Assembly: GCF_005893125.1 (NCBI RefSeq)
Contig: NZ_VCJS01000052.1
Location: forward strand, 1-64,000
Length of the DNA stretch: 64,000 nucleotides
Direction: 5' to 3'
DNA from: Nonomuraea basaltis
Lineage (GTDB): Bacteria; Actinomycetota; Actinomycetes; Streptosporangiales; Streptosporangiaceae
This document shows positions 24,216-33,435 of the stretch, one piece after another. Within the stretch, counting starts at the first letter, position 1, and each line of letters starts with the position of its first letter. Under the pieces are notes generated by a model. It did no database searches. It had not been told where the DNA came from and was given only the letters and a program-made list of their open reading frames with translations. Made by a program: the position numbers and the translations under genes.

Positions 24216-25238
24216 TCAGCGGACGCGATCCACCAGGCCGTCGCACAAGGCACGCAGGTCGGCCGCGTTCGGCAGACAGTCGTCCAGGACCTCGAGCGCC
24301 GACGACACGTACCGGTCCGCCAGCGCCCGGGCCTCGGTGCGGCCGCCGGCCTCCTCCACGAGGCGGGCGGCCCGCCGCAGCGACTCCTCGTCCGTCGAGC
24401 CCGAGGCGAGGATGACGGACAGCTCGTGCGCGGCCGCACCGCCTGCGGCGAGGGCCGCGAGCACGGGAAACGTCTTCTTGTCGCGCCGCAGATCACTGTG
24501 TACGGGTTTGCCGGTGATACGGGGATCACCCCAGATGCCGAGCACGTCGTCCACGATCTGGAAGGCCACGCCGAGGTCGCGGCCCATCTGCCACATGCGG
24601 TCCGCCAGCTCGGGCGCGCCCCCTAGAGCCACGCCCGTCGCCGCGGCGGCGCCCAGCAGCCCGCCCGTCTTGCCCGCGGCCATCTCGGTGTACTCGGCGA
24701 CGGTGACCTCGTTGGGACCGGCCCATGGGCGGTTCTCGAAGGCCATGTCGGCGGTCTGCCCCTGGACGAGGTCGATCAGGGCCGCCGACAGGTACGTCAT
24801 CGCCTCCGGCCGCCCGGCGAGCTGGCCGACGGCCAGGGCGAGGAGCGCGTCGCCGGCCAGCAGCGCCGGCCCCACGCCGTACGCCTTCCAGAGCGCGTCC
24901 CGATGCCTGCGCCGCTCGTCGTTGTCGATGATGTCGTCGTGCGCCAGCGAGAACGCGTGCACCAGCTCCACCGCCACCGCCCCCGGCAGCGCCGACTCCG
25001 CCGCGGCGCCGACGGCCTCGGCGCTGAGCATGGCGATGGCCGGCCGCACGCCCTTGCCGCCGTCGCCGTCGTACGGCCTGCCGTCCGCGTCCGACCACCC
25101 CAGCGCGAACCCGGCCATGGTGGCGCCCCACGGGTGCAGCATCGAGACCGCCTCGCGAAGAGCCGGCTCGAGTAGCCCCTGGCAGCGGGCAACGGCCCCA
25201 CTGCCCAGCGGGCCGGCGGCCTGATGGCTAAGATTCAA
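24216..25238 (-). CDS. Polyprenyl (probably geranylgeranyl) diphosphate synthase
   Basis: The 340-residue trans-prenyltransferase condenses isopentenyl diphosphate with allylic diphosphates. The first Asp-rich motif is HDDIIDNDERRRH (D101, D102, D105) and the second is IVDDVLGIWGDP (D230, D231), with GGKGVRPAIAM and the Lys in AAGKTGGLLG as substrate contacts. The start is TTG at 25238, seven bases after AGGAG. Chain length cannot be fixed from motifs, but the adjacent class II diterpene cyclase and class I terpene synthase imply a C20 product. The gene is divergent from the P450 gene across 322 bases containing several palindromes, so the cluster is probably driven from that shared region. 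Confidence 0.9.
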   Translation of the reverse strand: MNLSHQAAGPLGSGAVARCQGLLEPALREAVSMLHPWGATMAGFALGWSDADGRPYDGDGGKGVRPAIAMLSAEAVGAAAESALPGAVAVELVHAFSLAHDDIIDNDERRRHRDALWKAYGVGPALLAGDALLALAVGQLAGRPEAMTYLSAALIDLVQGQTADMAFENRPWAGPNEVTVAEYTEMAAGKTGGLLGAAAATGVALGGAPELADRMWQMGRDLGVAFQIVDDVLGIWGDPRITGKPVHSDLRRDKKTFPVLAALAAGGAAAHELSVILASGSTDEESLRRAARLVEEAGGRTEARALADRYVSSALEVLDDCLPNAADLRALCDGLVDRVR

Positions 25239-25560
25239 CTGGCACTCCTACCCCGGTACGATCTTGAATCTACATGCGGGAACATGTGATAATCCACCCA
25301 TAGATTGACATATGTCAGGAAATGTCCGTGATGTGACACAAGGCACCGCAGGCACAGCGGGAGACGCACGTGGCGATCAGACGCCCCCACGCCACCCGCT
25401 CCACACCGGGCGGACCAGGGCAAGGTGACAAGAGGGCAATACCGCCGTATCTCCCAATCGTGATCATTTATCGACTTTTATGCGACAACAACCCAAAAGG
25501 TGATAAATATCGCATAGAGGACTTTATCTGCATATCGCATCCGGATCGGGGATCGCCGTC
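25239..25560. promoter_or_regulatory. Shared AT-rich control region of the terpene cluster
   Basis: These 322 bases separate the divergent prenyl synthase and P450 genes. A perfect 12-bp palindrome TGACATATGTCA lies at 25306-25317. ACATG (25272-25276) and CATGT (25283-25287) form a second inverted repeat. Close to the P450 start, TATCGCAT occurs twice (25508-25515 and 25533-25540), and TATGCGA (25479-25485) is its near inverse; two TGAT..TATCG blocks (around 25461 and 25501) add to the pattern. The segment 25455-25540 is strikingly AT-rich for this genome. No gene is present. The palindromes are likely regulator sites; none of the cluster genes encodes a regulator. Confidence 0.55.
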
Positions 25561-26937
25561 ATGCCGCCTGCCTCGGATACCTCCGTGACCAGCCCGAAAG
25601 TCCTCCCGTTCCACAAGACCATCCCGAGGCTGGTCAAGGATCCGGTCACCGAGCTGGCCAGAATGGGCGCCGAGGCCGGAGGTCGCATCGTCCGGCTCAA
25701 TCTCGGCCCCTTCCGTCCCTATCTGGTCTCGCACCCCGACCACGTCCAGCAGGTACTCAAAACGGAGTGGTCCAACTTTCTGCGCGAGGGCATGTTCTGG
25801 CGGCCGGTGCGCCGCCTGACCGGCCAGGGCATCCTGCGCGAGGGCGAGGACTGGGCGTCCACCAGGAAGATCCTCCAGCCGCTCTTCACCGCGAGGTACA
25901 TGGCCTCCCTGGCCGAGGACATGGCCGACGCCATCGCCGAGCGCATCCTCGAGCTCGACGACCACGCGCGGGCGGGCCGGCCGATCGACGGCGCCGGCCA
26001 GATGACGGCGATCGTCAACCAGGCCGTCGTCAAGGTCCTGTTCGGCGGCCGGATCTCACGCGACACCGCCGAGCGACTGGCGCCCGAGTTCGCCACCTGC
26101 GCCACGACGATCGGCTTCCGGCTGCTGTTCCCCTTCGTGCCGTACTCCGTCAAGGTCCCCGGTGACCGCGCCTTCCTGCGCGCCATGAAGAACATCGACG
26201 AGATCGTCTATCCCCTGATCGAGCAGGCGCGCCGCGAGGGCGCCGGCATCGGGAAGATGGACCTGATCTCGGCGGTGCTCACGTCCAGGACCGGCCAGGA
26301 CGGCAAGGGGGACCTGCGGCAGGTCCGCGACGACCTGGTGAGCATGTACGCCACGTCCACGGAGACCACGGCGATGTCGCTGACCTGGCTGTGGGCCGTG
26401 CTCCACGAGTATCCCGCCGTGAGCGCCCGGCTCCATGAGGAGATCGACCGCGTCGTTGGCGATGGCCCGGTACGGCCGGAGCACGCGACGCGGCTCCCGT
26501 ACCTCCACATGGTCCTGCAGGAACTGTTACGCCTGTATCCGGCAGGCTGGATCATCCCCCGGCAGGCGGTCGCGGACACGGAGATCGGCGGCGTCCGGAT
26601 CAAGAGCGGCTCGCAGGTGCTGATCAGCCCGTACACCACCCACCGCCTGCCGGAATTCTGGGATCGGCCGCTGGAGTTCGACCCGGATCGCTGGGCCGGC
26701 GAGAGCACCCGCAGGCATCGCTACGCGTACTTCCCCTTCGGCGCGGGCCCGCACTCCTGCCTCGGCCAGAACCTGTTCAACGTCGAGGCCCCGCTGGTGG
26801 TCGCCGGCCTGCTGAGCAGGTACCGGCTGGTGCTGACCAACCCCCAGAGGCTCATCCCGGTGCCGGGAGCGTCAGCGCGGCCGAAACAGCAGCTCCTGTT
26901 ACGACTGATGCCGATCGAGCGGAACCGGCCGACGTGA
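25561..26937 (+). CDS. Cytochrome P450 (diterpene-tailoring candidate)
   Basis: The 458-residue protein is a complete P450. The heme ligand is C400 in FPFGAGPHSCLGQN; the K-helix ExxR is ELLR (E321, R324), the PERF-like region is FDPDRW, and the I-helix has ATSTETTAMSL, where the usual AGxxT becomes STETT. There is no membrane anchor, so it is soluble and needs a separate ferredoxin and reductase, neither of which is nearby. The stop overlaps the GTG of the class II cyclase gene, giving tight coupling. It most likely oxidises the diterpene made by the neighbouring enzymes. Confidence 0.92.
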   Translation: MPPASDTSVTSPKVLPFHKTIPRLVKDPVTELARMGAEAGGRIVRLNLGPFRPYLVSHPDHVQQVLKTEWSNFLREGMFWRPVRRLTGQGILREGEDWASTRKILQPLFTARYMASLAEDMADAIAERILELDDHARAGRPIDGAGQMTAIVNQAVVKVLFGGRISRDTAERLAPEFATCATTIGFRLLFPFVPYSVKVPGDRAFLRAMKNIDEIVYPLIEQARREGAGIGKMDLISAVLTSRTGQDGKGDLRQVRDDLVSMYATSTETTAMSLTWLWAVLHEYPAVSARLHEEIDRVVGDGPVRPEHATRLPYLHMVLQELLRLYPAGWIIPRQAVADTEIGGVRIKSGSQVLISPYTTHRLPEFWDRPLEFDPDRWAGESTRRHRYAYFPFGAGPHSCLGQNLFNVEAPLVVAGLLSRYRLVLTNPQRLIPVPGASARPKQQLLLRLMPIERNRPT

Positions 26938-28490
26938 GCCCCGGGAGCGTCGCCGCCGGCGAGATGGCGAACACCTCTTCGGTCGCGGGCGAACTGATCG
27001 CCAGCCTGATGCTCAGGCCATGGGGGCAGGTGTCGCCGTCGGTCTACGAGACGGGCCGGATGGTCACGCTGGCCCCCTGGCTGACCGGCCATCGGGAACG
27101 GATCGACTACCTGACCGGAACCCAGCGTCAGGACGGAGCGTGGGGCGCGCCGGACGGGTACGGCCTGGTGCCGACCTTGAGCGCCACCGAGGCGCTCCTC
27201 TCCGCACTGGCGCGCGGGGACCTGGGCGTGGATCGCGAGTGCCTCGCCCAGGCGGCGGAGCGGGGCCTGCGCGTGCTCGCCACCTGGCTGGGCGAGCGGC
27301 TGGAGCTGCCGGACACGCCGGCGATCGAGCACATCGTGCCCTCGCTCGTGGCCCTCATCAACCGGCACGTCGAGGACCTGGCGGGCCACGCGCCGCTGCC
27401 GCTGCCGGAGGGAATGAGCCACGACACTCTCCACCTGGTCAGGTCGTGGATCAGTTCAGGGGCGGAGATCCCGGAGAAGCTGCTCCACGCTCTGGAGATC
27501 GCGGGCGACGAGGCCGGCGGGGCGCGCGGGGTCCGGCCGACGGCCATCGGGACCATCGGGGCGTCCCCCGCGGCCACCGCCGCCTGGCTGGGAGGCCCGG
27601 AGGGCCATGACGCGGACGGGCGGGCCCGCGATCACCTGGAGGCGGTCGTCCGGCGCCACGGCGGCCCGGTGCCCGTCGGGTTGCCCATCACCGTGTTCGA
27701 GCGGGGCTGGGTGCTGAGCTGGCTGACCCGCGCGGGTGTGCCCGTCGAGGCGCCGCCGGAGATGGTGGCGGACCTCAGGGCGGCGATCGGGCCCGACGGG
27801 ACGGCCGCGGGGCCGGGGCTGCCCGCCGACGCCGACACGACCTCGGTGGCGCTGTACGCGCTGGCGCTGCTCGGGGCGCCGTACGAGCCGGACAGCCTGT
27901 GGCGCTTCCGCTCCGGCACCCACTTCTCCACCTGGCCCGGCGAGCAGGGAGTCTCGGTCAGCGTCAACGCCCACGTGCTGGACGCCTTCGGCGAGTACGT
28001 GGCCCGTCGGCCCGCCGCCGCGCCCCGCTACGTGGAGACCATCTCCGGCCTGGCCGCCTGGATCGCCGACCGTCAGCAGCCGGACGGGAGTTGGACCGAC
28101 AGGTGGCACGCCTCCCCCTACTACGCCACCGTCGCCTGCGCCCTGGCGCTCGACGCGTTCGGCGGGGACGCCTCGGCCGGGTCGGTGCGCGCGGCTGTCG
28201 AGTGGGTGCTGGGCACCCAGCGGCCGGACGGCTCATGGGGCCGCTGGGAGGGCACCGCCGAGGAGACCGCGTACGGAATGCAGACCCTGTTGCTGACCAG
28301 GAGCCGGATGGACCCGCGATGCGTGCTCGCCGCGGACGAGGGACAGGCGTACCTGACACGCTCTGCCGGAACGGAGCATCCCCCGCTCTGGCACGACAAG
28401 GACTTGTACGTGCCGCTCGCCGTGACCCGCGCCGCGGTCATCGCCGCGGCACACCTGGCCGAGCGGGCGCGGGACGGGGCGGCTCCCTAG
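26934..28490 (+). CDS. Class II diterpene cyclase (copalyl-diphosphate-synthase-like)
   Basis: The 518-residue protein starts at a GTG overlapping the P450 stop. It has prenyltransferase/squalene-oxidase-type alpha-barrel repeats (QRQDGAWG, QQPDGSWTDRWH, QRPDGSWGRW) and the protonating motif DADTT at D299-D301-T303, a DxDTT variant of the DxDD motif of class II cyclases; I recall the same variant in the mycobacterial Rv3377c-type enzyme. It lacks the DDxxD and NSE motifs, so it is a monofunctional class II enzyme that would cyclise geranylgeranyl diphosphate by protonation into a bicyclic labdane- or halimane-type diphosphate. It converges with the class I synthase; their stop codons share the bases CTAG. 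Confidence 0.88.
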   Translation: MSPGSVAAGEMANTSSVAGELIASLMLRPWGQVSPSVYETGRMVTLAPWLTGHRERIDYLTGTQRQDGAWGAPDGYGLVPTLSATEALLSALARGDLGVDRECLAQAAERGLRVLATWLGERLELPDTPAIEHIVPSLVALINRHVEDLAGHAPLPLPEGMSHDTLHLVRSWISSGAEIPEKLLHALEIAGDEAGGARGVRPTAIGTIGASPAATAAWLGGPEGHDADGRARDHLEAVVRRHGGPVPVGLPITVFERGWVLSWLTRAGVPVEAPPEMVADLRAAIGPDGTAAGPGLPADADTTSVALYALALLGAPYEPDSLWRFRSGTHFSTWPGEQGVSVSVNAHVLDAFGEYVARRPAAAPRYVETISGLAAWIADRQQPDGSWTDRWHASPYYATVACALALDAFGGDASAGSVRAAVEWVLGTQRPDGSWGRWEGTAEETAYGMQTLLLTRSRMDPRCVLAADEGQAYLTRSAGTEHPPLWHDKDLYVPLAVTRAAVIAAAHLAERARDGAAP

Positions 28491-29536
28491 ACGCCGTGCG
28501 CGTCCGCGTCCCTGACCAGGTCCTGAACGGTGTACGCGTGCGTGTCCCTGGCCATGTACCAGGCGCCGTTGAACGCCACGCTCCTGCGCTGTCCCTCCGC
28601 GACGTCCGCCAGCTCGGGGGGCAGCTCCGCGAGCGCGGCGGCGAAGGCCCCGTTGAGCTCGGCGATGTGCGTGGAGACCCGTTCGACCGCCGCCTCCACG
28701 GTCATCCCCGAACGCTCCAGGATGAGGACGGAGTTCGGCTTGCCCTCGCCCCTCTCCCGTTCGAACGTCCTGATGTCGTTGGCGAGCCGCATGCAAGCCG
28801 CGCCGAAGGCGGTGGCAGGCGCGATCGATCCCCAGTGCGCGGCGTCGGCGGGAGCGGGACCGCAGATCGCCAGGGCAGCCGCCCACCAGGTGGGGTAGAG
28901 GATGGTGATGCGGCCGTTGGCCAGATAGTCGTCGTACGCCGGCCAGGGCTCGCTGCCCGCCGCCCACACGCGCTCGCGGGCCATGGCGGCGCCGGCGAGC
29001 TCGAGCCGTTCCACCAGGGTCGGCACGTGCGTAGCGGCGCCGGGATGCGCGTGAAACCGGTCGCACCACCCCTGCCAGGCGTGCAGGGCCTGTCCCATAG
29101 GATCTGCGGCGTCGGCCGGCGCCGTGGACGTCTGGGGCGGCGCCCCGGAAACCATGGCGCGAAGCCTCGCGAAAAAGGCGGCGACGTCGCGATGCGACCA
29201 CTGGCCCGCGATGTCGTCGGCGATGTCGTCGATGCCGAACAGGATCGCGGTCAGCGCCCCGAGATCGGCGATCTGATCCGGCGGCGCGTGCGGGAACGTC
29301 GCCGCGGCCGACAAGCAGCTGAAGGACAACCGGCTGGCGGCGCTGTCACCGTCGGCGAACAGGCCGGTATAGGGACGTAAGAGCTCGGCCGCATCGGACA
29401 CGGCTTCGGCCGCGGCCCTGAGCACGGCGCTCCGATGCTCCTCGGGCACGCCCGCCAGCCGATGCGCCCCCTGAAGCAGGCGATCCACGACGTCATTCCT
29501 GATGCTGAAGTACCCGGAGGGGTCCGCGTCGCTCAC
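28487..29536 (-). CDS. Class I terpene synthase (diterpene-type candidate)
   Basis: A 349-residue all-alpha class I terpene synthase. The Asp-rich motif is FGIDDIADDIA (D103, D104, D107) and the second metal motif is NDIRTFERE (N253, T257, E261, the NDxxTxxxE form). This fold ionises an allylic diphosphate with three Mg2+. With a class II cyclase next door, it probably takes the bicyclic diphosphate onward, as ent-kaurene-synthase-like bacterial enzymes do. The start is GTG 29536; no ribosome-binding site is present, but TATCCT lies six bases upstream on the minus strand, a leaderless-type arrangement. A 20-base direct repeat spans this promoter. Confidence 0.88.
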   Translation of the reverse strand: MSDADPSGYFSIRNDVVDRLLQGAHRLAGVPEEHRSAVLRAAAEAVSDAAELLRPYTGLFADGDSAASRLSFSCLSAAATFPHAPPDQIADLGALTAILFGIDDIADDIAGQWSHRDVAAFFARLRAMVSGAPPQTSTAPADAADPMGQALHAWQGWCDRFHAHPGAATHVPTLVERLELAGAAMARERVWAAGSEPWPAYDDYLANGRITILYPTWWAAALAICGPAPADAAHWGSIAPATAFGAACMRLANDIRTFERERGEGKPNSVLILERSGMTVEAAVERVSTHIAELNGAFAAALAELPPELADVAEGQRRSVAFNGAWYMARDTHAYTVQDLVRDADAHGV

Positions 29537-29538
29537 TT

Positions 29539-29588
29539 AGGAAGGATATCTACTGACATCGCCAAGCAAGGAAGGATATCTACTGACA
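29539..29588. repeat. 20-bp exact direct repeat in the class I synthase promoter
   Basis: AGGAAGGATATCTACTGACA occurs exactly at 29539-29558 and again at 29569-29588, a period of 30 bases (about three helical turns). On the minus strand the copy nearer the gene contains the TATCCT that may be the -10 box. A paired-site activator or repressor, or a promoter duplication, would explain it. Confidence 0.75.
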
Positions 29589-29647: not shown

Positions 29648-29677
29648 TTGAGAGACGCTTTGCGTGTGCGCTAAGGT
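29648..29677 (+). promoter_or_regulatory. Promoter candidate for the conservon operon
   Basis: TTGAGA (29648-29653) and TAAGGT (29672-29677) are separated by 18 bases, a good match to a housekeeping actinobacterial promoter. The predicted transcript would start near 29684, leaving a leader of about 70 bases before the ATG at 29756. The flanking 29580-29645 is AT-rich. Confidence 0.55.
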
Positions 29678-29755
29678 TCCTTGATCGACAGCGCCGGTAT
29701 GCAACTGCATGTCCTGGTGGTCCGCACACAGAATCACTTTCACAGGGTGGGTTCA

Positions 29756-32077
29756 ATGGGCTTCCGCAACACACGCCTGCGGACCAAAGTCACGGCTCTG
29801 CTGCTCTCACTCGCGGCGCTGTGGGCCTTCGCCGCATGGGTCACCCTTCGTGAAGGTGTCAACCTGCTGTGGGTCTCCCAGCTCGACACCAGCATAGTCT
29901 CACCGAGCGAGCCCCTGCTCGTCGAACTGCAGCGCGAGCGCCGGGTCTCGGTCGTCAAGCTGAGCAACGCGACGGCCCGGTCCCGCAAGGATCTCGAGAA
30001 CCAGCGCAGGCAGACCGACCGCGTGCTGGCCGAGTTCAGGGAGGCGGCGAGCGCGGGCATCGTCGGCTGGGCGATGGACGACGAGGCGATCAGGCGGCTC
30101 GGCGACGTGTTCCGGCAGCTCGACACCGTCAAGAAGACCCGGCAGGGCGTCGACGCGGCCCAGGTCAACCGGATCCAGGCGACGGCCGCCTACGGTGACG
30201 TCATCGACTCCATCTACGGCCTCTACGGTTCGCTGGCGACGCTCGACGACAAGACCCTCGCGAAGGACATCCGCACCCTCCTCGCCCTGAGCCAGGCGCG
30301 AGAGGTCCTCGCCAGGGAAGACGCCCTGCTCGCCGGCGCCCTCGTCGAGGGGCGGATGTCTCCCGCGGAGCACGCGCGGTTCACCCAGACCGTGGGAGCT
30401 TGGCGCCTCCTCGCCGAGCAGGCCGGGGGCGAGCTCCCGGCCTCGGAGAAGGCCAACTACGACAGGCTCGTCAACGGCCAGTCGTTCGCCCAGCTCCAAA
30501 GGCTGGAGACGCTGATCTCCGAGCAGGACCTGAGGGCAGGAAGCCTGCCGATCGGCGCCGACGAGTGGAAGGCGACAGTCGACCGCGCCCTCGCCGACAT
30601 CAACAACCTGGTGCTCGGCGCCGGAGACCGCCTGGTGGACAGGGCCGTGCCCGTCGCCGTCAACGTGGTCGTACGGCTGCTCCTGGCGGCCGGCCTCGGC
30701 CTCATCGCGGTCATCGCCTCGATCGTCCTCTCCATCACCACGGCCCGCGCCCTCTTCGCCCAGTTGCAGAAGCTCCGCGACGCGGCGCACGAGCTGTCCG
30801 ACAACCGCTTGCCGGACGTGGTCGACAGGATCGGCCGGGGCGAGGAGGTCGACGTGGCCGCCGAGGCGCCGCCGCTGCAGTTCGGCGACGACGAGATCGG
30901 CCAGGTGGGCCAGGCGTTCAACACCGTCCAGCGCACCGCGATCAAGGTGGCCGCCGAGCAGGCGGAGCTGCGCCGCAGCATCCGCGACATCCTGCTCAGC
31001 CTGGCCCGCCGGACGCAGGGCCTGGTGCACCGGCAGCTCACCGTGCTCGACGTGATGGAGCGCCGCGAGACCGACCCCGAGGAGCTGAAGGAGCTCTTCC
31101 GGATCGACCACCTGGCCATCCGCATGCGGCGCAACGCGGAGAACCTCATCGTGCTGTCCGGCTCCTCCCCGGCCCGTACGTGGCGGCGCTCGGTCCCCAT
31201 GGTCGACGTCGTACGCGGCGCGCTGGCCGAGGTCGAGGACTACACCCGCGTCACCCTCATGCCGATGGGCGACGTCGTGCTCGTCGGCCGGGCCGTGGGC
31301 GACGTCATCCACCTGCTGGCCGAGCTGATCGAGAACGCCGTGTCGTTCTCGCCGCCGTACACGAACGTGCAGGTCAGCGGCCAGCTCGTGGCCAACGGGT
31401 ACGTGATCGAGATCGAGGACCGGGGCCTGGGCATGAAGCCCGAGGACCTGGACGCCGCGAACGCGCGCATCGCGGACCCGCCCGAGTTCCGCATCACGGG
31501 CACCGCCCGGCTGGGCCTCTACGTGGTCAGCCAGCTGGCCAGGCGCCACGACATCCAGGTGGTGCTCAAGGCGTCGCCGTACGGCGGGACGACGGTCGTG
31601 GTGCTGCTGCCGCAGGAGCTCGTCCAGCTCTCCCCCACGCCGGCGGAGCCGCAGGGCGGCGGGAGCAGGGAGCGGCTGCCGCGCAGGCCGACGGCCATGG
31701 CCACGGTGGCGCGCCCCGCCACCGGGGAGAACGTGCGCGCGCTCAAGTCCGCGCGCCCGGCGCCCGCCCCCGTGGCCGCGCCCCTCCCGGAACCGGTACC
31801 AGAACCCGAACCGGAGCCAGAACCGCCGGCGGAAACGGAGCAGCAGCCCGTGGCCGAGTTCACGCCGTCAGGGCTGCCGCTGCGCGTGCCCCAGGCCAAC
31901 CTTGCGCCGGCGTTGCGGGACGACACGCCCACGCAGCCAGACTTCGAGGAGGACGATGACGAGCGCTCGCCGGAGGAGATCCGCGCGAGGATGGGATCTC
32001 TGCAGTCAGGCACCCGCCTTGGCCGCACGGAAGCGGCCAAGATGCTGGATGAGCAGTCGGGAGACGAGGCATCATGA
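29756..32077 (+). CDS. cvnA: Conservon sensor histidine kinase-like protein (CvnA type)
   Basis: The 773-residue membrane protein has a first transmembrane segment at about 12-30, a long extracellular helical nitrate/nitrite-sensor-like domain (about 45-300), a second membrane segment (VVVRLLLAAGLGLIAVIASI), a HAMP-like linker and an ATPase domain with LAELIENAVSFSPP (N box), EIEDRGLGM (G1) and GLYVVSQLARRH. The phosphoacceptor His region is RTQGLVHRQLTVLDVMERRE. The C-terminal ~170 residues are a Pro/Glu-rich disordered tail. I chose ATG 29756 after AGGGTGGG; upstream in-frame starts exist. CvnA proteins partner with the roadblock, DUF742 and GTPase proteins encoded next, forming a membrane signalling complex likened to eukaryotic G-protein systems. 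Confidence 0.9.
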   Translation: MGFRNTRLRTKVTALLLSLAALWAFAAWVTLREGVNLLWVSQLDTSIVSPSEPLLVELQRERRVSVVKLSNATARSRKDLENQRRQTDRVLAEFREAASAGIVGWAMDDEAIRRLGDVFRQLDTVKKTRQGVDAAQVNRIQATAAYGDVIDSIYGLYGSLATLDDKTLAKDIRTLLALSQAREVLAREDALLAGALVEGRMSPAEHARFTQTVGAWRLLAEQAGGELPASEKANYDRLVNGQSFAQLQRLETLISEQDLRAGSLPIGADEWKATVDRALADINNLVLGAGDRLVDRAVPVAVNVVVRLLLAAGLGLIAVIASIVLSITTARALFAQLQKLRDAAHELSDNRLPDVVDRIGRGEEVDVAAEAPPLQFGDDEIGQVGQAFNTVQRTAIKVAAEQAELRRSIRDILLSLARRTQGLVHRQLTVLDVMERRETDPEELKELFRIDHLAIRMRRNAENLIVLSGSSPARTWRRSVPMVDVVRGALAEVEDYTRVTLMPMGDVVLVGRAVGDVIHLLAELIENAVSFSPPYTNVQVSGQLVANGYVIEIEDRGLGMKPEDLDAANARIADPPEFRITGTARLGLYVVSQLARRHDIQVVLKASPYGGTTVVVLLPQELVQLSPTPAEPQGGGSRERLPRRPTAMATVARPATGENVRALKSARPAPAPVAAPLPEPVPEPEPEPEPPAETEQQPVAEFTPSGLPLRVPQANLAPALRDDTPTQPDFEEDDDERSPEEIRARMGSLQSGTRLGRTEAAKMLDEQSGDEAS

Positions 32078-32493
32078 CCCCCACCCCTGGCACTGACCTG
32101 AACTGGCTGCTCGACGACCTCGTCGGCCGCGTCAAGGAGGCCGAGCACGCCATCGTGCTGTCCTCCGACGGTCTGCTGATGGCCTCGTCCGCGGGGTTGC
32201 AGCGGACCGACGGCGAGCACCTGTCCGCCGTGGCCTCCGGGCTGCAGAGCCTGGCCAGGGGCGTCTCGGAGCACATCGCCGGCGGCGCGGTGCGGCAGAC
32301 GGTCGTGGAGTGGAAGCGCCAGTTCCTCATCGTGACCGCGGCGGGCGAGCGGGCCTGCCTGGCCGTGCTGTGCGCCCAGCACGCCGACATCGGGCTGATC
32401 GCGTACGAGATGGCGATGATGGTCGCCCGGGTGGGCCAGTACCTCACCTCGGGCGCCCGCAGCGCCGAGGCCGTCGCCAGGAGCGACCGGTGA
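32074..32493 (+). CDS. cvnB: Roadblock/LC7 domain protein (CvnB type)
   Basis: The 139-residue protein is a single roadblock/LC7 domain: DLNWLLDDLVGRVKEAEHAI, VLSSDGLLMASS and AVLCAQHADIGLIAYEM. In conservons this protein is thought to regulate the GTPase, as MglB does for MglA. Its ATG overlaps the CvnA stop (ATGA) and its own stop overlaps the next GTG, so all are translationally coupled. Confidence 0.93.
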   Translation: MTPTPGTDLNWLLDDLVGRVKEAEHAIVLSSDGLLMASSAGLQRTDGEHLSAVASGLQSLARGVSEHIAGGAVRQTVVEWKRQFLIVTAAGERACLAVLCAQHADIGLIAYEMAMMVARVGQYLTSGARSAEAVARSDR

Positions 32494-32867
32494 CAGGCAC
32501 GGACGGCCCGACGGACGAGCACTGGGTCGATCCGGAGATCGTCCGGCCCTACGTCGTCACGCGCGGGCGGACCCAGCCCGCGCACGGCAGATTCGACCTG
32601 ATCTCCATGGCCCTGGCGGTGGGTCCGCCACCGGGCCCGGACGCCGGACTGGACCCCGAGCACCTCCGAATCCTCCAAATTTGCCGTGAACCTAAATCCG
32701 TCGCCGAGATCGCCGCGCATCTGGACCTTCCGGCAGGTACTATCCGCGTGCTACTCGGTGATCTGTTCGACCGCGAACTCGTCTCTGCCCAGGAACCACA
32801 ATCCGAGGTGGACATGCACGACATGAAGATGTACAGGGCGGTGCTCGATGGTCTTCGCTCGCTCTGA
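32490..32867 (+). CDS. cvnC: DUF742 protein (CvnC type)
   Basis: A 125-residue DUF742 protein, starting at GTG 32490 in the GTGA overlap with cvnB. The domain shows IVRPYVVTRGRTQPAHGRFD near the N-terminus and a winged-helix-like C-terminal half (SVAEIAAHLDLPAGTIRVLL, GDLFDRELVSA). It is the third standard member of the conservon, of unknown biochemical role. Its last 20 bases overlap the GTPase gene. Confidence 0.93.
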   Translation: MTGTDGPTDEHWVDPEIVRPYVVTRGRTQPAHGRFDLISMALAVGPPPGPDAGLDPEHLRILQICREPKSVAEIAAHLDLPAGTIRVLLGDLFDRELVSAQEPQSEVDMHDMKMYRAVLDGLRSL

Positions 32868-33435
32868 TCGCCCCCGCCTGCCGACGGCGATCAAGATCCT
32901 GGTCGCCGGCGGCTTCGGCGCGGGCAAGACGACGATGGTGGGGGCGGTCTCCGAGACCCGGCCGCTGCGGACCGAGGAGATCCTCACCGACCGCGGGATC
33001 GGCGTGGACGACCTCACGTCGGTGGAGGCCAAACGGACCACCACCGTGGCGATGGACTTCGGCCGGATCACCCTGGGCACCGACTATGTCCTGTACCTGT
33101 TCGGTACGCCCGGGCAGGAGCGATTCTGGTTCGTGTGGGACGAACTGGCGGAGGGCTCGCTCGGCGCCGTCATCCTGGCGGACACCCGGCGCCTGGCGGA
33201 CTGCTTCCCGTCGGTCGACTACTTCGAGCGGCGGGGAACGCCGTTCGTGGTGGCGGTGAACTGCTTCGAGGACGCGCCGACGTTCAATCTGGACGAGGTA
33301 CGGCTGGCGCTCCAGCTCGACCCGTCGATCCCCATCATCTTGTGCGACGCCCGGAAACGGGATTCGAGCCGTGAAGTGCTGATCGCTCTGGTCAAACACT
33401 CGGCCGAACTACGGGCGGAGCCCGTCGGCAGCTGA
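32848..33435 (+). CDS. cvnD: Conservon small GTPase (CvnD type)
   Basis: The 195-residue protein has the Walker A/G1 motif GGFGAGKTT, a switch region with conserved Thr (KRTTTVAMDFG), the G3-like LFGTPGQERFWF, and the base-recognition segment VAVNCFED (NCF replacing NKxD). These fit the Ras-like MglA/CvnD group. It starts within cvnC, 20 bases before that stop. CvnD probably switches with CvnB and relays signals from CvnA. The nearby terpene and P450 genes may be linked functionally; in Streptomyces conservons often carry P450 genes, but here the P450 is separated and faces the same way only by chance or history. Confidence 0.93.
   Translation: MVFARSDRPRLPTAIKILVAGGFGAGKTTMVGAVSETRPLRTEEILTDRGIGVDDLTSVEAKRTTTVAMDFGRITLGTDYVLYLFGTPGQERFWFVWDELAEGSLGAVILADTRRLADCFPSVDYFERRGTPFVVAVNCFEDAPTFNLDEVRLALQLDPSIPIILCDARKRDSSREVLIALVKHSAELRAEPVGS

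Follow-up and report, generated by a model that had tools for sequence, protein, structure and literature searches.

A class II diterpene cyclase locus of Nonomuraea basaltis as a probable conserved cassette with its own conservon

The locus was probably (at a rough probability of 0.6) a conserved cassette in which a labdane-related diterpene pathway is joined to its own conservon, an actinobacterial G-protein system. Within the window, i.e., the whole stretch of 64,000 nucleotides that was analyzed (contig NZ_VCJS01000052.1), the initial annotation had described a compact four-gene unit ending at 29536; however, the conserved unit extended into cvnABCD. Since conservon genes adjoined the enzyme cluster in more than 100 related actinobacteria, this arrangement suggests that the G-protein switch and the diterpene act together. 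The four enzyme genes claimed at 24216-29536 were all open at those coordinates with fitting Pfam matches, and every motif listed for them (DDIID, DDVLG, C400, DADTT, DDIAD and NDIRTFERE) was located in the translations:

24216..25238, minus strand: GGPP synthase, of the short-chain trans-prenyl diphosphate synthase kind, divergent from the other genes; Pfam polyprenyl_synt, 1.7e-52
25561..26937, plus strand: cytochrome P450, probable diterpene oxidase; Pfam p450, 2.8e-67
26934..28490, plus strand: class II diterpene cyclase, predicted copalyl diphosphate synthase; Pfam SQHop_cyclase_C, 1.9e-14
28487..29536, minus strand: class I diterpene synthase, family uncharacterised, convergent with the cyclase; Pfam Terpene_syn_C_2, 4.7e-19

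The labdane-type reading of this set (a class II and class I pair with a GGPP synthase and a P450) held by homology and motifs. The prenyl synthase would supply GGPP, which the class II cyclase would protonate through D301, stopping at copalyl diphosphate with the help of D488. The class I synthase would then remove the diphosphate and close another ring or quench the cation, and the P450 would oxidise the diterpene product. CvnA-D at the membrane would control the pathway genes in cis, in the manner of Cvn8 and the adjoining lanthipeptide cluster of S. coelicolor; Cvn8 represses its neighbouring cluster according to excerpts of PMC8510531. Each chemical step is an inference, and so are the nature of the product and which way control runs.

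Stops and starts had been described as coupled in the cluster, which was true of the P450 and class II cyclase genes, the only pair coupled head to tail (a GTGA overlap with 4 bases common to both), but not of the other genes. The class II and class I genes were convergent with stops overlapping in CTAG, and the prenyl synthase gene was divergent and 322 bases away on the P450 side. The prenyl synthase carried DDIID at 101 and DDVLG at 230; its best NCBIfam matches, encapsulin-cargo polyprenyl transferase (5.9e-103) and GGPPsyn_IdsB (9e-79), were both below cut-offs. Among the best 80 of 232 loci, a homologue of this gene was present at 28 of 32 Nonomuraea loci vs 8 of 48 others. The P450 had its heme Cys400 in FGAGPHSCLG and STETT in the I helix region. 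Its best NCBIfam matches, albaflavenone mono-oxygenase and pentalenene oxygenase, were below cut-offs, and its matches in the PDB were 7wzl (1e-55) and 3dbg (8e-49).

Downstream of the enzyme genes, kinase, roadblock, DUF742 and GTPase domains (CvnA to CvnD) were found in conservon order at 29747-33435:

29747..32077, plus strand: cvnA, NIT-HAMP-HATPase sensor kinase of the linked orthologue clade; start GTG 29747 or ATG 29757
32074..32493, plus strand: cvnB, roadblock/LC7 protein; Pfam Robl_LC7, 2.5e-25
32463..32867, plus strand: cvnC, DUF742 protein, start approximate; Pfam DUF742, 8.3e-34
32848..33435, plus strand: cvnD, Ras-like small GTPase; Pfam ATP_bind_1, 2e-30

CvnA matched NIT (3.4e-40), HATPase_c (5.9e-14) and, below the cut-off, HAMP (9.4e-05); the label of CvnD as a small GTPase follows the consulted portion of PMC13343842. 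When relatives were compared, every named locus (80 of 80) had a cvn gene following the cyclase in the same orientation. These loci were the top 80 among 232 confirmed stretches retrieved with peptide patterns. This locus set was biased to the linked clade because the patterns included the DxDTT motif. In the same 80 loci, the median gap between cyclase and cvn gene was 225 bases in the 64 without a class I gene between them and 1233 bases in the 16 with one. A cvn gene likewise followed the cyclase at all 40 loci fetched from the order and at 29 of the 30 best loci from another family; when loci were partly picked for distance (n = 20), a conservon was within the stretch in 16 and downstream of the cyclase in 15. 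No conservon was seen within the stretch for six distant cyclases (L195, L207, L255 and L257-L259). In a CvnA tree of 46 chosen rows, made by a quick method that gave warnings on long or gappy rows, the linked CvnA formed a single clade (30 rows, SH-aLRT 97) that excluded 11 paralogues encoded in the genome of the window, the best of which was 42% identical to the window CvnA. When 22 chosen genomes were searched at a cut-off of 1e-150, orthologous cvnA was found in 6 of 6 cyclase-bearing genomes vs 1 of 16 cyclase-less ones.

If the adjacency were old shared synteny, the conservon would be a passive neighbour serving another process. Type A loci form one clade in the trees, so the linkage in 80 of 80 (the best 80 of 232) does not amount to 80 independent events, and in one genome (G019) the orthologous conservon stood alone, 14 kb showing no homologue of the cyclase, the P450 or the class I enzyme. 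However, synteny was kept over several families though other flanking genes varied; a Micromonospora plasmid carried the seven-gene block beside an integrase gene; the conservon was absent at the 1e-150 cut-off from all 7 cyclase-less Nonomuraea genomes of the small chosen set; and a separate cyclase clade in streptomycetes had a different conservon beside the cyclase in 12 of 14 loci. Passive neighbourhood is a doubtful explanation, and a pathway joined to its own conservon is preferred. Input sensing by conservons is largely unexplored according to the parts of PMC13343842 consulted, and a cassette that couples one conservon lineage to one diterpene pathway offers a definite molecule to examine as either input or output.

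A bolder form of the joined cassette would be a self-contained circuit, in which a lipophilic diterpenoid signal is sensed by the cognate CvnA-D. Such a circuit would be kept in three families (Streptosporangiaceae, Thermomonosporaceae and Micromonosporaceae), and streptomycetes would have another pairing of cyclase and conservon; class I swaps would change the signal structure while CvnB-D stay near constant within Nonomuraea. This is speculative and on balance unlikely. The narrower proposal that CvnA binds the diterpenoid as its ligand, hormone-like or self-sensing with the NIT domain as receptor, is consistent with a cognate CvnA clade and with the NIT sensor domain of the window CvnA, whereas in the consulted sections of PMC13343842 conservons with an accessory P450 have a CvnA without a sensor domain. 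However, NIT domains are nitrate sensors or have no known ligand in the same sections, and a cluster regulator need not sense the product of its cluster, leaving this proposal quite unlikely.

The class I enzyme had DDxxD and NSE motifs (DDIAD at 103-107 and NDIRTFERE at 253-261), an all-helical AlphaFold2 model (pLDDT 87.6) and class I synthases as Foldseek neighbours, as in class I terpene synthases. When its family profile was compared with the PDB, the best matches were tolypothrichol synthase (9kgb, 4e-40), Stt4548 (7e4m, 1.5e-10) and Sat1646 (7e4n, 1e-8); Foldseek likewise placed 9kgb first and Sat1646 next. These enzymes were 21-24% identical to the window enzyme in structural alignments, a level at which function is not transferable. 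Tolypothrichol synthase and pimarane-type diterpene synthases headed the list of homologues, as a diterpenoid assignment would have it, but sesquiterpene synthases came close behind. For the class II cyclase, the closest solved structures were diterpene cyclases. Because the best solved homologues of both enzymes were diterpene-type, homology gave no ground for abandoning that assignment.

The window enzyme fell outside the Sat1646 family, the usual class I family among relatives (X1), as its family profile gave an E value of 1.1e-8 vs 1.5e-110 for the X1 family of the relatives. Judging from the sequences, the Sat1646-type enzyme is mostly replaced in one Nonomuraea subclade by an uncharacterised class I family that occupies a new slot on the opposite strand. 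Given this replacement in the subclade of the window, its product probably differs in skeleton from isopimara-8,15-diene. The locus draws attention to a class I diterpene synthase family of Nonomuraea that is as yet uncharacterised. It is improbable that the class I synthase acts alone on GGPP or FPP, outside the class II route: its gene is on the opposite strand with an upstream region of its own, and sesquiterpene synthases were among many fold neighbours of the model, but the enzyme replaces a Sat1646-type user of copalyl diphosphate, a scan of those loci turned up no further class I gene, and 9kgb and Sat1646 were its top matches.

Expression of the class I gene apart from the other pathway genes is possible. 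Two sets of elements lay between it and cvnA:

29540-29557 and 29570-29587, minus strand: direct repeat of GTCAGTAGATATCCTTCC in two copies at a spacing of 30 bases, immediately preceding the class I start
29648..29677, plus strand: promoter-like TTGAGA-18-TAAGGT before cvnA, read from the sequence

The repeat-bearing promoter of the initial annotation stood as far as the repeat itself, the two 18-mers being exact and the sole exact copies in the genome; the repeat was not found in 16 relatives. TATCCT in the near copy could be the -10 box of a leaderless transcript. A conserved operator was considered and rejected, as a pattern for the repeat core matched nothing in the intergenic stretch of all 16 named relatives (16 of 16) whose loci have a class I gene at this position. 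In the putative cvnA promoter, the TTGA and GCTA parts looked kept, by eye, in the Nonomuraea alignment. The gap and the promoter-like site before cvnA suggest that the conservon is transcribed separately from the enzyme genes, which counts against the joined cassette, as does the placing of the class I gene on the opposite strand.

The class II cyclase had the metal-diphosphate motif DxxxxE (D127TPAIE132), the acid motif D299ADTT303, D488 (in WHDKDLY) and the C-terminal Tyr Y492. The D301 column was Asp in 119 of 120 aligned rows, and similarity to PtmT2 was full-length (E=2.8e-120 over 16-509), as expected of a class II enzyme. Identity was 47% to PtmT2 (5bp8) and 53% to the Salinispora-type enzyme L253, and the cyclase fell in clade A (SH-aLRT 99) in a quick-method tree of 73 chosen rows with warnings on long or gappy rows. 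Position 302 was Thr or Ser in 98 of 98 linked-clade cyclases vs Asp in 21 of 22 others, and position 390 was Arg in 98 of 98 vs Lys in 22 of 22; DADTT was accordingly rejected as an odd trait, Thr or Ser in place of the last Asp being the norm in linked cyclases. One cyclase (L155) was left out of the alignment set because of its length. An earlier motif scan of 81 linked loci (the best 80 of 232 and L165) gave 71 DADTT and 5 DCDTT, the rest having DADST, DADPS, DADPA or DSDTT, some perhaps in wrong frames; it overlooked the motif in 13 of the 14 loci scanned from the streptomycete family and was superseded by the alignment counts.

Asp at the PtmT2 D502 position marks copalyl (labdane) over clerodane or halimane formers according to the portion of PMC9814783 consulted. 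D488 occupied this position in the window cyclase, and the column in 98 linked rows contained Asp in 93, Gly in 4 and a gap in 1. Copalyl diphosphate of normal form is, on sequence evidence, the most likely product; its configuration rests on orthology, and PtmT2, at 47% identity, gives the ent form. The skeleton, previously held to be unpredictable, is partly predictable because copalyl diphosphate is the likely intermediate. A halimadienyl or other rearranged diphosphate is very unlikely: DxDTT aligns with that of the Rv3377c-family chain 6vpt, but the motif occurs in the Salinispora-type enzyme too, likeness to that family is distant (E=3e-30 vs 3e-120 for PtmT2), and D488 is kept, whereas Gly stands there in the clerodane former Tpn2, and Gly or Ala in most of the Rv3377c family (same portion of PMC9814783).

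PtmT2, the ent-copalyl diphosphate synthase of platensimycin biosynthesis, was the closest solved class II enzyme and had the WHDKD motif in common with the window cyclase; however, it has DSDDT and Lys in place of DADTT and Arg390, and lies outside clade A. A literature search found no report on a class II diterpene cyclase or copalyl diphosphate synthase in Nonomuraea. The likeness to the Salinispora isopimaradienol operon that had been pointed out was borne out. In the terp1/sat cluster, SaCPS, SaDTS/Sat1646 and CYP1051A1 lead to isopimara-8,15-dien-19-ol, and both systems have P450, class I and class II genes, with class II enzymes of the same clade carrying DADTT, R390 and D488. In a Salinispora-like genome whose class I enzyme was 98% identical to Sat1646 (isopimara-8,15-diene synthase), the order was P450-I-II-cvnABCD, with the conservon next downstream. 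In 62 of 80 relatives (best 80 of 232), the class I gene preceded the class II gene and shared its orientation. By contrast, the window departs from the one-strand order of P450, class I and class II, its class I gene being of another family, reversed and after the cyclase, and it has a divergent GGPP synthase beside the P450.

Microbispora hainanensis CSR-4 makes the orphan compound 2alpha-hydroxy-8(14),15-pimaradien-17,18-dioic acid, according to the part of its description consulted, which names no gene cluster for it. Because the one strong class II cyclase match in the type strain was conservon-linked, this acid may be what the Sat1646-type version of the cassette makes; CSR-4 is not the type strain compared, and the window has another class I enzyme. 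In this respect the cassette could be the gene cluster behind orphan pimarane-type compounds of rare actinomycetes. One pimarane product for all relatives is not expected because Acrocarpospora punica yields abietane and labdane diterpenoids and Actinomadura geliboluensis yields kauranes, as stated in excerpts of PMC9854854 and PMC11857663. Among conservon systems, Cvn8 beside the lan cluster and the prenylindole clusters, every one of which contains a conservon in the excerpted text of PMC3617294, resemble the window in having a cvnA-D set beside a biosynthetic cluster. The window differs from both in its class II diterpene pathway and in a P450 that scores best against terpene oxidases.

All four reading frames proposed in the initial annotation, with every motif it had named, were present, and family searches returned the expected classes. 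The features are:

24216-25238, minus strand, prenyl synthase
25561-26937, plus strand, P450
26934-28490, plus strand, class II cyclase
28487-29536, minus strand, class I synthase
29747-33435, 3' of the cluster, genes for a NIT-HAMP-HATPase kinase, a roadblock protein, a DUF742 protein and a small GTPase (cvnA-D)

The P450 and cyclase genes overlap by 4 bases (GTGA), the cyclase and class I genes converge on a common CTAG, and the prenyl synthase gene is divergent; the coupled stops and starts claimed for the cluster are thus limited, as translational coupling, to the P450-cyclase pair. The last four genes form a set described as a conservon, or actinobacterial G-protein system (PMC13343842).

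This conservon accompanied the cyclase in relatives. At least one cvn gene lay 3' of the cyclase, and in its orientation, at every locus of two sets: 40 of 40 drawn from the order, and 80 of 80 in a larger set (the best 80 of 232 confirmed stretches, found with search patterns including DxDTT). The two sets partly cover the same genomes. In the larger set cvnA itself was detected at E<=1e-8 in 79 loci, the exception being L138, which has a short piece there at 1e-4. Where no class I gene intervened (64 loci), a median of 225 bases (range 117-739) separated the cyclase from the cvn genes; in the 16 loci where one did, the median was 1233 bases. In the family of Virgisporangium, cvnA flanked the cyclase in 29 of the 30 best loci, with none within 1.5 kb at the remaining one (L226). 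Genome G1254, taken as Salinispora or very near it, has the order P450-I-II-cvnABCD, and its class I gene is 98% identical to the available piece of Sat1646, the Salinispora isopimara-8,15-diene synthase. CvnB, CvnC and CvnD (32074-33435) were 81-97% identical among the Nonomuraea loci of the order search, more than most neighbouring enzymes. Cyclase homologues occurred in 47 of 54 genomes of the genus, including the window's own, and 207 of 345 of the order (both E<=1e-20), in 134 of 300 of the Virgisporangium family (1e-30) and in 20 of 394 of a class sample (1e-40).

Chance would rarely place any given gene beside a CvnA homologue, judged from the count alone, since the 14.3 Mb genome of the window holds about a dozen strong ones. 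Four further CvnA homologues lie together on one 70-kb contig of that genome (C446), a cluster of conservons. The 80 linked loci do not represent 80 events because they share common descent. Better support for a linkage beyond chance comes from the CvnA tree, from co-occurrence across genomes, and from the plasmid block and the streptomycete pairing described below. The 30 sampled linked CvnA sequences formed one clade (SH-aLRT 97), with 11 paralogues from the window's own genome outside it. Among 22 hand-chosen genomes (cut-off 1e-150), a cvnA orthologue was present in all six examined that bear the cyclase (58-83% identical) and in one of 16 that do not (G019, 56%), including none of seven cyclase-less Nonomuraea; three other cyclase-less genomes had CvnA matches of only 43-46% and the remainder none. 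The naive hypergeometric probability for this set, with kinship ignored, was 9.4e-5. Counting against the linkage are the G019 conservon, present without the pathway, and six loci (L195, L207, L255, L257, L258 and L259) where no conservon was found in the stretch beside the cyclase. In G019 the orthologous conservon (6958-10800 of L280) has no pathway homologues within 14 kb, showing that a conservon can persist alone. At L256, a distant cyclase (41%) has a divergent conservon on one side, and homologues of the P450 and of the class I enzyme follow it on the opposite strand, another arrangement of the cassette parts.

A seven-gene P450-terpene synthase-cyclase-cvnABCD block lies on a 203-kb Micromonospora zamorensis plasmid (L238, NZ_CP107937.1), with a helicase gene adjoining and an integrase (tyrosine recombinase) gene near; this placement suggests that the cassette may be mobile as a whole. 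Of 29 plasmid records that matched the cyclase, 27 were from Streptomyces. An 11.85 Mb Nonomuraea gerenzanensis record with 10 annotated features (NZ_LT559118.1) is also a PLSDB plasmid entry; its size suggests a chromosome. Cyclases of the G671 family, taken as Streptomycetaceae, formed a separate clade (7 sampled sequences, SH-aLRT 100), and a different conservon lay 5' of the cyclase in 12 of 14 loci. One Streptomyces plasmid is annotated cvnABCD-P450-GGPP synthase-cyclase-P450-terpene synthase. In this streptomycete version (L240, a plasmid of Streptomyces sp. NBC_01732, and L196-L206) all genes run in one direction, as annotated for L240. This pairing may have arisen independently or be an old link rearranged; the cyclase tree does not resolve the deep forks.

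The class I enzyme of the window belongs to a family of 16 sequences whose profile best matched tolypothrichol synthase (9kgb, 4.2e-40) among solved proteins, then Stt4548 (1.5e-10) and Sat1646 (1.1e-8). A Foldseek search with the AlphaFold2 model (pLDDT 87.6) likewise ranked 9kgb first and Sat1646 next, with sesquiterpene synthases close behind in this predicted fold. The usual enzyme of relatives belongs to the Sat1646 family itself (1.5e-110), remotely akin to the window's family (hhalign probability 99.0). Among the best 80 of 232 loci, a Sat1646-type gene stood 5' of the cyclase on the same strand in 62 and a window-type gene 3' on the opposite strand in 14; a Sat1646-like enzyme occupied the reversed 3' slot in two (L077 and L078, Nonomuraea jabiensis and Nonomuraea jiangxiensis), a window-type gene preceded P450 and cyclase in one (L142, Actinomadura craniellae), and no class I gene was found in the scan of L152. 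In the cyclase tree the window's Nonomuraea subclade (11 sampled sequences) formed one group (SH-aLRT 100), sister to nine Nonomuraea sequences of the Sat1646 type (SH-aLRT 100), the two joined at 95. Together, these counts and groups suggest that one class I enzyme took the place of another inside a single genus, and that L077 and L078 represent a further change. The reversed-slot enzymes of those two loci are a further lineage, 34-35% identical to the Microbispora hainanensis enzyme.

The repeat-bearing class I promoter of the initial annotation does contain an exact 18-base direct repeat, with only those two exact copies in the genome, but its core was not found in the 16 relatives of the 80-locus set that carry a class I gene at this position. 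By eye, an alignment of the window and 14 relatives showed, in several of them, a GGATATC-like block beside the start of the class I gene; 5' of cvnA it showed a TTGA...GCTA pair resembling a promoter. The class I transcript may be leaderless.

The class II enzyme was closest to PtmT2, an ent-copalyl diphosphate synthase, among solved proteins (E=2.8e-120; 47% identity), and carries D127xxxxE132, the acid motif D299ADTT303, and D488 at the PtmT2 D502 position, where Asp accompanies copalyl diphosphate and Gly clerodanes (PMC9814783, on Tpn2). In a 120-sequence alignment, all 98 conservon-linked cyclases had Thr/Ser at 302 and Arg at 390, and the 22 outside had Asp at 302 (21 of 22) and Lys at 390 (22 of 22). 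DADTT is therefore ordinary for the clade and was rejected as an unusual trait. Position 488 was Asp in 93 of the 98, Gly in 4 and a gap in 1. The Salinispora-type cyclase of G1254 shares DADTT and Arg and has WHDKDLY, and SaCPS, the class II partner of Sat1646, reportedly gives the normal configuration (PMC9814573). From these residues and this likeness, our best guess for the product is copalyl diphosphate, most likely of normal configuration. We put the overall reading of the locus, a diterpene pathway joined to its own conservon, at a probability of about 0.60, slightly lowered by the 4 of 98 linked cyclases without the copalyl-favouring Asp and by an adjacency estimate drawn from the homologue count.

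Known diterpenoids are no more than pointers to what the Sat1646-type version makes, and a different product is to be expected from the window. Microbispora hainanensis CSR-4 yields 2alpha-hydroxy-8(14),15-pimaradien-17,18-dioic acid, for which the available part of PMC7338456 names no cluster. In the type strain the only strong class II match is the conservon-linked cyclase; a second, weak match (43%, part of the query) is taken as a hopanoid cyclase. Actinomadura and Streptosporangium, which also carry the cassette, are the source of the norditerpenoids actinomadurol, JBIR-65 and k4610422 (PMC10951976, PMC10301674). Abietane, labdane or kaurane skeletons occur among the other diterpenoids of these genera (PMC9854854, PMC11857663). 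The enzyme classes and pathway type are already known. A conservon tied to a diterpene cluster was not found in the searched literature, largely open-access main articles. Conservons beside biosynthetic genes do have precedent: Cvn8 adjoins the lan cluster (PMC8510531), and others lie beside prenylindole clusters (PMC3617294) and the frankiamicin cluster (PMC4383371).
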